Source: Crambe crambe (lineage: Eukaryota; Porifera; Demospongiae; Poecilosclerida; Crambeidae). From it: DNA of 64,000 nucleotides. The notes under the pieces are model-generated. The model made no database searches. It was not told where the DNA came from and worked only from the letters and a program-made list of their open reading frames with translations. The DNA is taken from NCBI GenBank assembly GCA_963924555.1, contig OZ004586.1, forward strand, positions 2,170,001-2,234,000, written 5' to 3'. A program made the translations under genes and the position numbers. This document shows, piece by piece, positions 34,291 through 63,481 of the stretch. Position 1 is the first letter of the stretch, and each line of letters begins with the position of its first letter.

Positions 34291-36247
34291 ATGATGCAGA
34301 CGTTAGTGTCTGAGGTGATTTGTTTGCTCCTAGTTGTTCAAGGACAGTCACAAGGTAAAATCATTATTATTGGCTTCATGATTAGCTAGCTTATTTTTCA
34401 TAGAGCAACCGCTAGCAGTTACATTGATGTAGCTTAGCTAGTCTACTTCATCTATCTAATAGACATTCTATTTCTCTAACTAAGTGAAGCCCATACAATA
34501 TCATGCTAGGCCTATAGCTAGCTACTATCATGGACTAGTGAAAAAAAGTAGCAACATAGCTATTAACTTGAAAGCAGCTTGTTTTGCTTCAACTGATTCT
34601 TAATTGGTTCTGTGTGTTTAAAAATTCTGCTCAATGTATATATAGCTATAATTATTATGACAATTAACCATGAGTGGCAGCTTATCTTCTAGCTGTTATC
34701 TTTATGTCAGGAGCCTTCTGTTCAAGCACCAAGCTAACAATATTACTATGACAACCATGAGTGGCAGCTTAATTAGCTAGCTTCTAGCTGTTGTCTTACA
34801 AGCACCAATGATATCACTAGCTAACGATAATACTACATATAGCTAGCTGACTCCAGTATCTATTGGTATGATTGAAGTAGTATAGCCTGGGAGTGGTTCT
34901 TAGTGAGCCGGTATAGCTAAAAGCAATGAAGTGTAGAAGTAGCTATTGAATACTGAACAACCAAAGTCTTTTCCCACATTGAATTTGGGTATCATTCTTG
35001 CACATGCATGTCAAATTGTGTTTTACAGAAGTGGTTATAATCTCTAACAATACATCTCTGAGTGTTGGTGACACTGTCTTCCTCACATGTGTGGGATTCG
35101 GCCAGCTCCAGCCTGATGTGGAAATCACTTGGAGCAAAAACGGTGCAGACATTATGAACAGTTCCCTTGTTATAATATATGAAGAAGAAGTTACTGAAGG
35201 AGGGAGGATGTCCAAGGTGTCTACGTTGGTGTTGTGTGGTCTACAAGGCTCTGCAGCTGGTGCCTATAACTGTACAGTCAGAAATAACCAAGGAACAATG
35301 ACTGCTACCACTCAACTATCTGTACTAGGTATATATTTTATTTTGATATAGTGATAATTGTGGTGGGACCATATTCAACAGAACCTGCGGAAGAAACCCG
35401 CACTCCACAAACAGGAATATTGGAGGTGTGGCCCTACATTCTTATTGCCATTATGGTGATATTTGGAGTGTGTATAGTCATCCTAATAGCCATTGTATGT
35501 GTCCTGAGGCAGAGAGGAAGAAGGATGACAGTCATCATGCGTAAGTTTTCATTATTCTTGATGAATACAACAGTTCTTAATCTACTGGGCTAGTATCATC
35601 AAGTAGCCCACCCTCTCATAAATGTCCCATCTTCACTCTCAGCAGCCACAATTTTTTTTTGTCTCCAAGCTCAGCTGGATATCAGTCCCATTAGTTATAA
35701 ATTCGAAGAGGAATCGTGTGTCCTGAATATTGCATTGAACTGAGTATGCTATAATGTGCATTTACCTGCTCCACCAATCTTTCCTGATATGCTGGTAGTG
35801 TTCATAACAATGAAATGTTTGTATCTCTGAAGCTGTATAACCATTAATGGTATTGAATGGGGGGTTAGCTGGAAAAAAAAAAAAAAAAAAAAGAAAAAAA
35901 GAAAAAAAAAAGAAGCTGCATGAAGTAAATTGCAGGTGTGGTCATGGGTGTCTGCAATGAAATCACCGCTTGGTTAACTGGTCAGTAACTCTGGTGTTCG
36001 TGTAACTCTGAGAATTTGTAACTCTATATAGGTGTTTAACTCTGAGAATCTCAGAGTTGTGAACACAAGAGTTATAAGTCACTGTTATTGCTAACCAATA
36101 ACTATAGAGAATAATGGAGCTCCAATTCGAATGACCCAAAATGAAGTTTATGGAGTGAGACCAGACCCTACAAATGGAATAGAAATGAAGGACCATGAAG
36201 TGTATGCAGAGATCCAGGATGATAAGGTGTATGACGAGATCCAGTAA
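34291..36247 (+). CDS. Receptor A: one I-set Ig domain, membrane helix, YxxI tail
   Basis: Exons 34291-34354, 35029-35328, 35352-35540 and 36108-36247 give 230 residues, all in phase 1. The signal peptide is MMQTLVSEVICLLLVVQGQS. The Ig exon shows VGDTVFLTC, the core Trp in EITWSKNG, and AGAYNCTV with the second Cys, typical of an I-set fold. The membrane exon reads WPYILIAIMVIFGVCIVI then the stop-transfer RQRGRR. The tail has three tyrosines: NEVYGVRP, HEVYAEIQ and KVYDEIQ. The last two are spaced YxxI-x5-YxxI, one residue short of a classical ITAM. It is probably a cell-surface signalling receptor; the ligand is unknown. Exon 3 could instead begin at 35382 (10 residues shorter), the acceptor that copy B must use. 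Confidence 0.8.
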
Positions 36248-37839
36248 TGAATGCACTGCAAAATATTAGCTATAATAAAATAAAATTAAAAAAAAACCAT
36301 TTTTATTGCAATTTCTGTGCAATCATTATAATAATTATGCACATTCAGTTTATTTCTCCAATGTAGCAATATAACAACTCTCTTGTATCTCATCCCTTTG
36401 GTGCATAAGCAAAAGTGCGTGTAAAAGTGCATGTAGTCCCTATAGCTAATATACGCAATGCTAGGCTCCTGCATAATTTACCTATTATGTTTGCTATTCT
36501 CAGAGTCTCACTCTTATTATCCAATTTCTCTCATATAGCTACATACATGTATCTGCCTAATTTGACCTTTGGTAGTGTGGTATTCAAAGTCCCATGACCT
36601 AATTCAAAAATGCATGAACACTTTAATTTCATTTTAGTTTGTACAGTGAAACAACAGCCAAGTTTAGGACAAATTTTTTTTAACCTTTGTAGAGAGGTTG
36701 GCCCTTAATTCTTGTAGGTTATAAAGGTCATTTCGTTCCTTTCAGTTTGTAGAGAGCTTGAGAGTCCCCTTGTTCAGAGATTTCACTGTAAACTCTCTTG
36801 AATCTCCACTTGACCCTATACATAGGTGTGCCATAATTTTTCTACGGTGCACCTAGATAGTGTATTTCACGATCACAGCCACATAGCTACCAAATGGTCT
36901 CACCACTAGAATTTTGCTTGCTACAGGCCTGCAAACCTATCTACTCTCTCCTTTGATAAGCCCATGCAGGCACACTCTTTTGCGACCTCTCCCTGGTATC
37001 AGTTGTATACGTGTTAACCTCGGAATTCCAAGGCTTCCATATATATTCCTAATACACTCTCTGTAAATGTTGTGAAAAAAGCACCCAAGACAGTCTTATT
37101 GAACATAAGTTAGTATACTGCAGTAGTGAATGGTATGGAAAAGCTGGACAAAAACAATAAAGAAAAGGAGAAAGGAGTAAACTTTCAGGTTATTGCCTGT
37201 ATACTACACGCATGCACAAACAATAATTGATCTATACAGAGGCTAGTAATATAGATTGCCAGGTTTAGCTCTGATTTGTGTGATACCACTCTTTGCTTTA
37301 CACAGGGAAGCATACAAAGGTACACAAGAAGATCAAGAGTCCAAGAGTTATTCAGTGGAGAAGATTCCTAAGAGATTCAATAATCGCCGAAATGACTTTA
37401 TGATGTATACACTCATGTTACATTTTATTATGTATTCTAGCTATTAATTTGATGTAACACAGTTGTGTTGCATTCCTCGGGATGATCGACTGAGAGGGAG
37501 GCTTCAATATCTTCACTCATAGTTTGGGCAGAGAACAAGAAGGTACAGAGGTGAAGAAGAACCAGAAAAAAACCACCAGGATCAATGGCTGCATACCCAA
37601 ATTTTAATTAATTAATTAATTTTTTTTTTTTTTTTAAATTAATGCGGGCATCCGCAATAAGGAGTGGAACCAGTGGCCGGGCAGTTTATAATCCCGGTTC
37701 GTAGTCTGTAGCTGTACATACCCGTCCCGAGGCTCTATTGCATGCCTGGGGCCGAGGCTATAGCGTATTCAGTAGACGCGACAGATTCAAAATCATGACC
37801 CAGCAAGAATTCTATAAGCAATGTATTTGCACAATTATT
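36248..37839. other. Spacer, receptor A 3' side
   Basis: The first part (to about 36600) is duplicated after receptor B at 40625-40935. The rest has no coding signal. A T/A run with AATTAATTAATT lies at 37604-37640. Confidence 0.6.
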
Positions 37840-61900: not shown

Positions 61901-62186
61901 CTTTTTCTCTTACACACTTCATTGCATTCCTCTACGTGAATGCACGTGTGTATGTTTCACTATGGCATATGCTAAGCAATTTTTGTTATAATTAGCTAAT
62001 TATTGCAAAGTGCGCATGCGTCAATAAGCTTAATGATGATGCTATGAATATGATTAAAATATGGTTGCGGTATTTCAGGATTGCTCATTATCACTTGGGG
62101 CTATAATGTGAACTGTAGCTCTATGTGAAGGTGATCGATTCACTCCTGGATCTAAATTGGTTGCTAGCTAGGTAAGTAGACTAGCT
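58984..62186. other. Spacer between receptors G and H
   Basis: The first 130 bp and 59945-60180 match the 3' flank of H. An insertion of about 800 bp relative to H starts with CAGGGGCAGATCC at 59142 and ends GCTGGATCTG at about 59944; it holds a C run and a smaller inverted-repeat element (GGGTGTAGCTATCCAC at 59524 to GTGGATACACCC at 59719). No gene was supported. Confidence 0.65.
61153..61302. mobile_element. 150-bp Tigger-like MITE
   Basis: CAGTGGAACCT at the left and AGGTTCCACTG at the right are perfect inverted ends, flanked by TA (61151-61152, 61303-61304). The inner phrase CCTCTCTACAAAAGACAAAA also occurs near 30990 and 37935, showing relatives in the SLC35F5 3' region. Confidence 0.92.
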
Positions 62187-63481
62187 ATGGGTACGTTTCC
62201 AGGGAGAAGTGTGCAGAGATGTGTTTTGTCTCTCTATCCATTCATACTCGTTATTCTGCTTGGCCACTCACCACATACGGCTTGTGGACAAGGTAAAATA
62301 AGCGTAGCTATAGCTAGCTAGGCCCACTTGTAATTTAAAGAGTGCATAGCACAAATAGACTATTTATTATGTTTCTGTTTCTACAGAGTGTCTCTATCGG
62401 TATTTGAGGCAGCCTCCTTCAGCCATAATTGGTCAGTGCAACCCTTATACGAATTTCTTCAAGTTGGAGTGTCAAGTATCAGTAAGAGCGTTCCTGGGCC
62501 CTCAGACTGAAATTCGGTGGTTTCGCAATGATCAGCAAATCACAAACATCTCCTTTGCTCCAGTACAGAGTATACTTCCAGTGGTGAATAGCATGAATGA
62601 TCCATGGATCATAACTTCAGTGATAACACTGACTAACTTGAGAGATGAACACAGTGGAAACTATTATTGTGATGTAGCAATAGATACCAACTTGAACGTG
62701 ACATCAACTCCAAGCAATAAATTCTTGCTTTTGACACAATATCCACATTACATTTTTCTTCACCGAGAGTGCAGGAATATTCAATTTATGGATAGTGACA
62801 TTTGTGGTGGGACCATTCCTTCAACTACAACAGAACCTGTGGAAGAAACTTCCCCTCCTTCCTTGACCCCTACCTCCCCCTCCCTCACTCCCTCCCCCAC
62901 CCCCTCCCCTACTCCTCTCACAACTAGCAGCCAACCCACCACCCTCAGCAGCACTCCACAAACAGGAACATTGCAGGTGTGGCTCTACATTCTAATTGCC
63001 ATTGTGGTGATATTCGGAGTGTGTATAGTCATCCTAACAGCCATTGTATGTGTCCTGAGGCTGAGTGGAAGAAGGGTGACAGTCATCGCACGTAAGTTTC
63101 TACAGTCCTTTATAATCATTAATATTAAAGTGGATGCCTAATTATTACCAGATCCTTCTCATAAAATGGCTCATTTTCACTCTCGGTGCCTACACTTACA
63201 AATTTGTCTCCAGATATGATGAGTCTTCAGTCCCATTATCGAAGCGGAGTGGATAGGTCTCATGTAAACTGAGTATGCTATTCACATCTCTCTCTCTCTC
63301 TCTCTCTCTCTCTCTCTCTCTCTCTCTCTCTCATATATTATATATATATAACCCATAGCTAACTATAGAGAATAATGAAGCTCCAATTCAAATGACCCAT
63401 AATGAAATGTATGGAGTGAGACCAGACCCTGCCGATGGAATAGAGATGAAGGACAATGAGATGTACATAAAGATCCAGTAG
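62187..63481 (+). CDS. Receptor H: close paralogue of G with shorter tail
   Basis: Exons 62187-62292, 62387-63091 and 63369-63481 give 307 residues. The Ig/membrane exon is 705 bp, exactly as in G. The leader is MGTFPGRSVQRCVLSLYPF. The Ig region reads LECQVSVRAFLGPQTEIRWF and GNYYCDVAI. The helix is LYILIAIVVIFGVCIVI. The tail exon is 27 bp shorter than in G, lacking one KDNEVYAEM unit, and the tyrosines are in NEMYGVRP and NEMYIKIQ, so the acidic residue before the last isoleucine has become lysine. It is intact. It is probably a diverged signalling partner of G. Confidence 0.85.
63284..63332 (+). repeat. (TC)n microsatellite in the last intron of H
   Basis: About 24 TC units followed by a TATA-rich stretch. 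Confidence 0.9.

Follow-up and report, generated by a model that had tools for sequence, protein, structure and literature searches.

What is encoded by the row of small receptor-like genes that lies between positions 34291 and 63481 of a 64,000-nucleotide stretch of the genome of the sponge Crambe crambe (C9:2170001-2234000, referred to here as the window), and to what use might the animal put them? An initial annotation of the window described a tandem cluster of eight receptors, each with one immunoglobulin (Ig) domain and a tyrosine-bearing tail, and likened it to immune or allorecognition clusters elsewhere in animals. We find it rather probable, judging from the predicted proteins, that these are small type I recognition receptors of the sponge that signal through phosphotyrosine and are under duplication and recombination. 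The genome searched comprises 143,139,886 bases in 119 contigs; gene models and exon borders are predicted from sequence alone, position numbers without a contig name are window positions, and C5, C9, C12-C16 and C19 denote contigs of the assembly.

Protein and DNA searches of the window recovered eight receptor units, A to H, all on the forward (+) strand, at approximately 34.3, 38.9, 41.3, 48.7, 51.4, 55.3, 57.7 and 62.2 kb. The limits first proposed for the cluster are exact, with the ATG of A at 34291 and the stop of H at 63481, and one additional signal-exon relic was also recovered (47164..47224, +; 77% identical to the signal exon of A). The cluster extends past H, since a ninth unit, I, lies just beyond the window at C9:2236147-2237066, and two further related units are located on contig C12 at about 6.3185-6.3288 Mb, one a copy of B and the other resembling G and H. 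The units share an ectodomain plan of a signal exon, one Ig domain and a Ser/Thr/Pro stalk, followed by a single membrane helix and a short tail with two to three tyrosines on an exon of its own. In the exon models of A, B, C, G, H and I all junctions are phase 1 and the borders are GT/AG. The proposal that every unit follows one four-part plan holds as far as tandem signal, Ig and membrane units are concerned; it does not hold for the tail exon, which was found in six of the eight units (A, B, C, D, G and H), for the Ig, of which there are two types, or for the exon division, since Ig and membrane segment occupy one exon in C, G and H.

Units A (34291..36247) and B (38854..40624) consist of four exons, for signal, Ig, stalk with membrane segment, and tail. 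Those of A lie at 34291-34354, 35029-35328 (an I-set Ig), 35382-35540 (membrane class T1) and 36108-36247 (three tyrosines), and those of B at 38854-38917, 39415-39714, 39798-40001 and 40485-40624. For the third exon of A, the acceptor TATAG was replaced by CAACAG, because B shares CAACAG and has no alternative AG. Units C (41302..43524), G (57655..58983) and H (62187..63481) consist of three exons, the Ig, hinge, stalk and membrane segment being fused in one. The exons of C lie at 41302-41368, 41980-42699 (type-1 Ig, stalk and membrane class T2) and 43418-43524 (tail); those of G at 57655-57763 (signal class S2), 57881-58585 (type-1 Ig, two-cysteine hinge, stalk and membrane class T1) and 58844-58983 (tail, three tyrosines); and those of H at 62187-62292, 62387-63091 and 63369-63481 (tail, two tyrosines). 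Unit I has the first two exons of this layout. An intron within the type-1 hinge is not favoured, because insertions and deletions between the copies preserve the frame. Live and dead copies stand side by side, as had been claimed: A, B, G and H are open to the stop through all exons, C contains one in-frame TAG in its Ig exon, and D, E and F are decayed. In D (48732..50542; signal exon 48732-48792) the type-1 Ig is without GNYYC, the residues around the second Ig cysteine having been lost, the stalk is frame-shifted, the membrane segment is of class T1 and the tail is frame-shifted. Units E (51399..53231; signal exon 51399-51459) and F (55338..56648; signal exon 55338-55398) have the Ig in broken pieces and a membrane segment of class T2, and window searches found no tail exon for either.

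We compared the units module by module as DNA identities, and tested conflicting groupings by approximately unbiased (AU) tests in which the groups were named from the classes of the other module. Signal exons fall into two classes, S1 (A-F and the C12 copy of B) and S2 (G, H and I), which are 48-61% identical to one another. Membrane segments also fall into two classes, T1 (A, B, D, G, H and both C12 units) and T2 (C, E, F and I), at 57-69% identity between classes, and these do not follow the signal classes. On the membrane tree the AU test rejected the grouping of G, H and I (p 2.4e-7) and that of A-F with the C12 copy of B (p 1.4e-9), and on the signal tree it rejected the grouping of C, E, F and I (p 7e-74). 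Unit D is illustrative: its nearest relative is E by the signal exon (97%), A by the membrane segment (95%) and C by the tail (96%). On these comparisons the predicted units are mosaics, in which signal, Ig, membrane and tail modules are combined incongruently. The high turnover first ascribed to the cluster is evident both in this mosaicism and in the module identities between window units, which extend from roughly half up to 97%. For some pairs (I versus G and H; C versus D and G) the breakpoint lies within the exon for Ig, stalk and membrane segment, which would be consistent with unequal crossing-over or gene conversion. The type-1 Ig itself is 91-97% identical in DNA across the seven copies that we compared (C, D, E, G, H, I and the C12 unit), so that near-identical ectodomains are combined with membrane and tail modules that differ, an arrangement used to recognise paired receptors. 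When exon 2 of H is compared with the other type-1 copies that are nearly complete (G, I and the C12 unit, together with C despite its stop) the E values range from 9e-102 to 2.5e-128; the similarity among these copies is far above chance.

The two Ig types have different relatives. A and B carry an I-set Ig, and C-H, as well as I, carry the Ig that we refer to as type 1. The features of the immunoglobulin superfamily (IgSF), namely paired cysteines, a core tryptophan, Y-x-C and a Pfam match, are present. A passes the Pfam cut-offs for I-set, Ig_3, ig and others, and G and H narrowly pass that of PF00047 (24.5 and 23.5 bits against a cut-off of 21.8); above cut-off, A, G and H match generic Ig models only. 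Structure prediction of the Ig parts had been suggested as a check, and for B it was informative: the model has an I-set-like fold with a predicted local distance difference test (pLDDT) score of 82, and Foldseek matches it to sDscam Ig1 and titin M10 (E 8e-7) and also to LRIG and Dscam domains. A sequence search of the PDB with type 1 gave Axl as its best match (E 0.004) and was uninformative. The Ig of A and B is 45-66% identical to at least 60 Ig exons elsewhere (39 on C19, 10 on C14 and 11 on C5), and by sequence comparison is related to long multi-Ig arrays in the genome. The 39 exons on C19 (C19:6412991-6434152, covered in part by L030-L045) are 48-66% identical to A and B; in the part read they are highly alike, many at a period of about 365 bases, and they probably belong to a single multi-Ig gene of great length or else form an array of alternative exons.

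The C12 units also adjoin multi-Ig sequence. C12:6295001-6345000 (L012-L016) contains a 12.6-kb tandem duplication, at 97% identity, of a multi-Ig gene. In one of the duplicates a type-1 unit resembling G and H, with Ig, membrane segment and tail, lies about 370 bases downstream of a multi-Ig exon and matches it in phase; a signal exon was not found for this unit, which could possibly form a fused receptor with the multi-Ig gene. The other C12 unit is about 97% identical to B in DNA. We do not favour the idea that the C12 copy is another haplotype of the cluster, since only about 3.6 kb aligns (at 96-97%) and the surroundings are a different gene, the tandem-duplicated multi-Ig gene.

We present evidence that the type-1 Ig exon belongs to a wider family. 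A profile made from six type-1 exons was run against public proteins at E <= 0.001, scoring the 7988 candidates that shared most words with it, and found 18 proteins: the C12 unit (P0001), P0002, and 16 new ones (P0009-P0024) that are 26-41% identical across 71-98% of the query. Common to all sixteen are the Ig, a hinge with two cysteines, a Ser/Thr/Pro stalk and a membrane block of the form LQVWVYVLVAIAAVFGMIIVVLAILCVGLCLKKNKTTDSFKRE, which is the T2 class seen in C, E, F and I; this makes T2 probably the older membrane segment and T1 the derived one. Some of the sixteen are truncated N-terminally, and in the longer ones the Ig is preceded by C-x-Y-x-Y..QPP..CNPY or a close variant. By reading, the last residues of the membrane block are KR[E/K] in all but one of the 16 homologs, and KCE in that one. 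KR[E/K] is what results from reading through a phase-1 donor C/GTGAG or C/GTAAG (the slash marks the border), and C and I use the former; the exon border after the membrane block is thus probably conserved too. The distant homologs also retain the layout of one Ig per exon.

Searching the genome again with the family yielded seven diverged loci: L059 (C15, 5.657 Mb; 112 bits with the family hidden Markov model, HMM), L060 (C9, 5.403 Mb; 79 bits), L061 and L062 (C9, 2.265 and 2.269 Mb, on the opposite strand and some 28-32 kb past unit I), L063 (C12, 6.150 Mb), and L064 and L066 (C16, 1.024 and 1.042 Mb). L059 and L060 are supported, at the level of sequence, by score as well as by the cysteine framework. 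The remaining five score 35-59 bits, compared with 20-23 for lone C19 Ig exons and 33-51 for open reading frames (ORFs) containing several of them; as these ranges overlap, the evidence for the five is the framework and not the score. The full layout, in one frame, consists of an N-terminal loop with two cysteines, an Ig with C-W-C, a hinge with two cysteines, a stalk and a membrane segment, and it is found in G, H, I, the C12 unit, the sixteen homologs and the seven loci. Unit C matches it except for its stop; A and B, which have the other Ig, do not. We aligned 28 members (units G, H and I; P0001, P0002 and P0009-P0024; the seven loci). Each of the six cysteines occurs in every member that covers its position (20/20, 24/24, 24/24, 28/28, 28/28 and 28/28), and so does the core tryptophan (27/27). 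The first cysteine count used rows trimmed by the framework pattern, and a repeat on untrimmed rows gave the same counts. Conservation is greatest in the membrane: among P0009-P0024 and I (136 pairs) mean identity is 81% in the membrane block (range 59-98%), 34% in the ectodomain and 25% in the stalk.

Of 740 distinct ORFs, 12 show the N-terminal framework pattern, namely those of G, H, I, the C12 unit, the seven loci and L065; across 50 shuffles it arose 0.22 times on average and never more than once. The pattern was written after the loci had been seen and the ORF set includes stretches fetched as family members, so these figures show that the pattern is not a product of composition and do not show that it is rare. 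L065 (C9:80001-83000) has a one-Ig-like frame beginning C-x-Y-x-Y..P..CDP and a very long, repetitive, Thr-rich stalk; the family HMM did not recover it, it stands outside the seven loci and the cysteine counts, and it is possibly a mucin-stalked member of the family. Search-back also gave matches outside the seven loci, at C16 5.82-5.86 Mb, C15 6.79 Mb and other places. Downstream of several of the diverged loci, open frames hold tyrosine-rich stretches that are candidate tails only. Contigs of bacterial and archaeal genomes gave 78 pattern matches and viral contigs 15, none of them confirmed as relatives. None of the ten diverged members scanned passes any Pfam cut-off; by sequence, the type-1 Ig exon is a member of a wider family that has no Pfam family of its own. 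Within the literature searched on sponge and invertebrate Ig receptors and on C. crambe allorecognition, the portions of the sources available contain no account of it. The statement that the layout matches no described family is upheld to this extent, and the six-cysteine family is apparently undescribed within the limits of that literature and of Pfam.

Some public proteins are closer relatives. P0002 resembles G at 90% identity, P0006 resembles B at 76% and P0008, in its Ig part, resembles A at 78%, and search-back of the genome gave no closer match for any of the three; P0005 is 85% identical to B, and a genome search with the B exon gave no unlisted close relative. These four proteins may represent an alternate haplotype or another species. 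Another species is favoured for P0008, as its EGF part is at best 61-67% identical to anything in the genome.

What might the tails do? Six were tested (A, B, the C12 copy of B, C, G and H). They are 35-55 residues in length and carry NE[V/M]YGVRP, followed by one to three sites drawn from YAEI, YDEI, YTEI, YAEM and YIKI. The description of them as YxxI tails thus fails at the first site, NE[V/M]YGVR, and is correct for the one to three Y-x-x-I/M sites after it. Repeated sites are spaced nine residues apart, overlying a 27-base repeat, and the C12 copy of B has one site more. Y-x-E-I, present in five of the six tails, resembles pYEEI, a ligand of Src-family SH2 domains. SH2 matches number 135 in the genome, counted per exon, such that a split domain may count twice or more; about 32 of them lie at C5:1417826-1656255 and about 10 at C9:1487746-1614367, runs which suggest tandemly expanded SH2 genes. 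At C14:3697948-3702252, SH2-like matches recur at steps of 2,058 bases within an open frame of 9,513 amino acids. The codon pattern for NEVYGV occurs 20 times genome-wide, against 3 for a reversed control: six times in tails of the cluster and C12 (A, B, C, D, G and the C12 copy of B), ten times on C13 and four times elsewhere. The ten on C13 form a run (C13:5848015-5989704), and the two loci examined there (L025 and L026) also encode Cys-rich repeats with an EGF-like look; the tail motif is therefore probably shared with another class of receptor. By inspection, neither membrane class contains a charged residue, and the pairing of a charged membrane residue on one partner with an inhibitory motif on the other, as in paired receptors, was not found here.

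Selection was estimated from pairs of copies. The type-1 Ig exons give a pooled ratio of nonsynonymous to synonymous differences (pN/pS) of 0.45, the hinge 0.74 and the stalk 0.56, from ten non-independent pairs with C included; by pair, the Ig ratio is 0.39 for G-H, 0.69 for G-I and 0.52 for H-I. For whole models, the ratio of nonsynonymous to synonymous substitution rates (dN/dS) is 0.48 for H-I (p 0.0004) and 0.59 for G-I (p 0.011). The membrane segments of C and I differ by a dS of 0.35 and a dN of 0.01; the rows for the membrane segment of the C12 type-1 unit, and the pooled membrane value that includes them, were set aside. B differs from its C12 copy by six replacement changes and no silent ones. 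Constraint on the type-1 copies is suggested by these estimates and is not shown for A and B. The pairs compared give no sign of diversifying selection, for which this is a weak test.

Other features of the window can be noted briefly. A hAT-type transposase ORF of 871 amino acids (44301..46913, +; Pfam DUF4371 and Dimer_Tnp_hAT) interrupts the cluster between C and D. A TRIM-NHL-type gene (RING/B-box/Filamin/NHL) lies at 16134-18269 (-), and by eye a second TRIM-NHL-like stretch, spread across several frames, lies at 19964-20877 (-). An Rfam scan of the window gave no match at the gathering threshold.

If the units are phosphotyrosine-signalling recognition receptors, they might work as follows. 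The Ig part, which in type 1 is flanked by one cysteine pair before it (C-x-Y-x-Y..QPP..CNPY) and a second in the hinge, would bind a ligand outside the cell or on a neighbouring cell, and the constrained membrane helix would pair with itself or with a partner. Engagement would lead a Src-type kinase to phosphorylate the Y-x-E-I sites, to which SH2 proteins would then be recruited. Unequal crossing-over and gene conversion would join similar ectodomains to either type of membrane segment and to tails of differing tyrosine number, so that exchange could generate receptors alike in binding and unlike in output. Recognition of self, of a neighbour or of a microbe would be the most likely use, as far as the predicted proteins indicate.

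Several results weigh against this reading. Half of the window units are broken, and unit I is without a recognisable tail in the following 27 kb, which are partly N. The structure model of the type-1 ectodomain has a pLDDT of 43 and was not used. A reading of the tails through the textbook motifs was rejected by pattern test: none of the six contains an immunoreceptor tyrosine-based activation motif (ITAM; YxxL/I, 6-8 and up to 12 residues, YxxL/I), the gap between YxxI sites, where two are adjacent, being five residues, and none contains the inhibitory counterpart (ITIM; [SIVLT]xYxx[ILV]), position -2 being E or K. The tail of H, moreover, is without Y-x-E-I. As to constraint, the whole-model dN/dS of G-H is 0.59 with p 0.08, that of A-B (0.70, p 0.34) is not distinguishable from neutral, and in H-I and G-I the two members differ in membrane class (T1 and T2), on which their low p values partly depend.

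It is possible, if somewhat doubtful, that the units are ordinary adhesion or developmental receptors for cell contact or tissue upkeep, and that the cluster reflects neutral tandem duplication and decay. The conserved cysteines and membrane block and the mild constraint would fit such receptors, and a review links sponge IgSF proteins mainly to adhesion and intercellular recognition (PMC11999971). Ectodomains at 34% identity beside a strongly conserved membrane block, together with module swapping, would however be unusual for housekeeping adhesion genes.

That the units are allorecognition or immune receptors in the strict sense, with alleles or copies that differ between individuals and decide fusion, rejection or the response to microbes as Hydractinia Alr does, seems to us unlikely. 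A cluster of live-looking and dead copies with mosaic exchange and tyrosine tails is what one might look for in such a system, and full genes are mixed with pseudogenes in a comparable way in the Hydractinia complex (PMC11067881). The public proteins that are 74-90% identical to units and have no closer match in the genome (P0002, P0005, P0006 and P0008) are possibly other haplotypes, or other species. The type-1 Ig, however, is homogenised within the cluster and constrained on average, and is therefore not in the diversifying pattern expected at an allodeterminant; among the distant homologs, by contrast, the ectodomain is the variable part. Given this homogeneity, and tails that match neither ITAM nor ITIM, the immune or allorecognition role proposed in the initial annotation is not supported. 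Demosponge allorecognition, furthermore, is attributed in print to the aggregation factor (PMC8066720).

We regard it as improbable that the cluster is a dying pseudogene array with no present function. Four units (C, D, E and F) are indeed broken, the A-B ratio is not confidently below 1 and a hAT-type element lies within the array; against this, A, B, G and H have uninterrupted reading frames and intact splice sites, the ratios of H-I and G-I are below 1, albeit in pairs that cross the membrane classes, and the type-1 Ig has the low pN/pS given above, pooled from pairs that are not independent. Least probable of all, in our estimation, is that the units are exon modules of multi-Ig genes, detached or transient 3' ends (Ig, membrane segment and tail) of little independent function: the C12 unit in phase behind a multi-Ig exon and the relatives of the A/B Ig on C19, C14 and C5 point that way, whereas each of A, B, G, H and I is provided with a signal exon of its own whose splice phase matches, and distant homologs keep one Ig per exon.

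Clustered one-Ig, tyrosine-tailed receptors as a kind occur in other animals, and candidate phosphotyrosine-signalling receptors in a sponge can be compared with several of them. The vertebrate paired receptors (KIR, SIRP, PILR and CD300) similarly combine near-identical ectodomains with different membrane segments and tails in one tandem cluster; the units described here differ in having neither ITIM nor ITAM and no charged residue in the membrane helix, and beyond the Ig fold the likeness is one of description. As in Hydractinia Alr, we find clustered single-pass IgSF receptors in full-length and pseudogene copies (PMC11067881); unlike it, the present cluster combines a single Ig with two additional pairs of cysteines and with a membrane block that is strongly conserved, and the likeness is again by description and not by sequence. 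Oyster CgIgIT2 is likewise an invertebrate Ig receptor with a tyrosine-based tail, but has five Ig domains and a classic ITAM (PMC11999971), as opposed to one Ig and no ITAM here. Among sponge proteins, Geodia cydonium has IgSF surface proteins, which are described as an adhesion molecule and an Ig-bearing receptor tyrosine kinase (PMC11999971, PMC12018476); the tails of our units, at the lengths given, are too short for a kinase. They are also too short for the intracellular TIR domain of the sponge Ig-TIR receptors, which share with them an Ig ectodomain (PMC6208332), and Pfam gave no TIR match for the model of A with its tail included. What sets this family apart is its six-cysteine frame, together with the conserved membrane block and the tail.

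Sponges tell self from non-self. In demosponges this is credited in print to a secreted aggregation factor that bridges cells via specific transmembrane receptors (PMC8066720). The literature searched offers little on allorecognition in C. crambe: in the source that mentions both, the species is named only among the references. We think it distinctly unlikely, though worth stating, that the family answers to the whole of the following description: a diverging ectodomain on a conserved membrane and juxtamembrane signalling block, with C. crambe swapping modules, including an Ig imported from multi-Ig genes, as the counterpart in sponges of receptor clusters for immunity or allorecognition, and a candidate cell-surface partner in self-recognition that would signal via Src and SH2 rather than ITAM or ITIM. 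For the biology of the sponge, the findings show that an early-branching animal shuffles modules between clustered one-Ig receptors, and that their tyrosine tail lies outside both textbook immunoreceptor motifs. The six-cysteine signature and the conserved membrane block, lastly, define a concrete set of genes to genotype, express and test.

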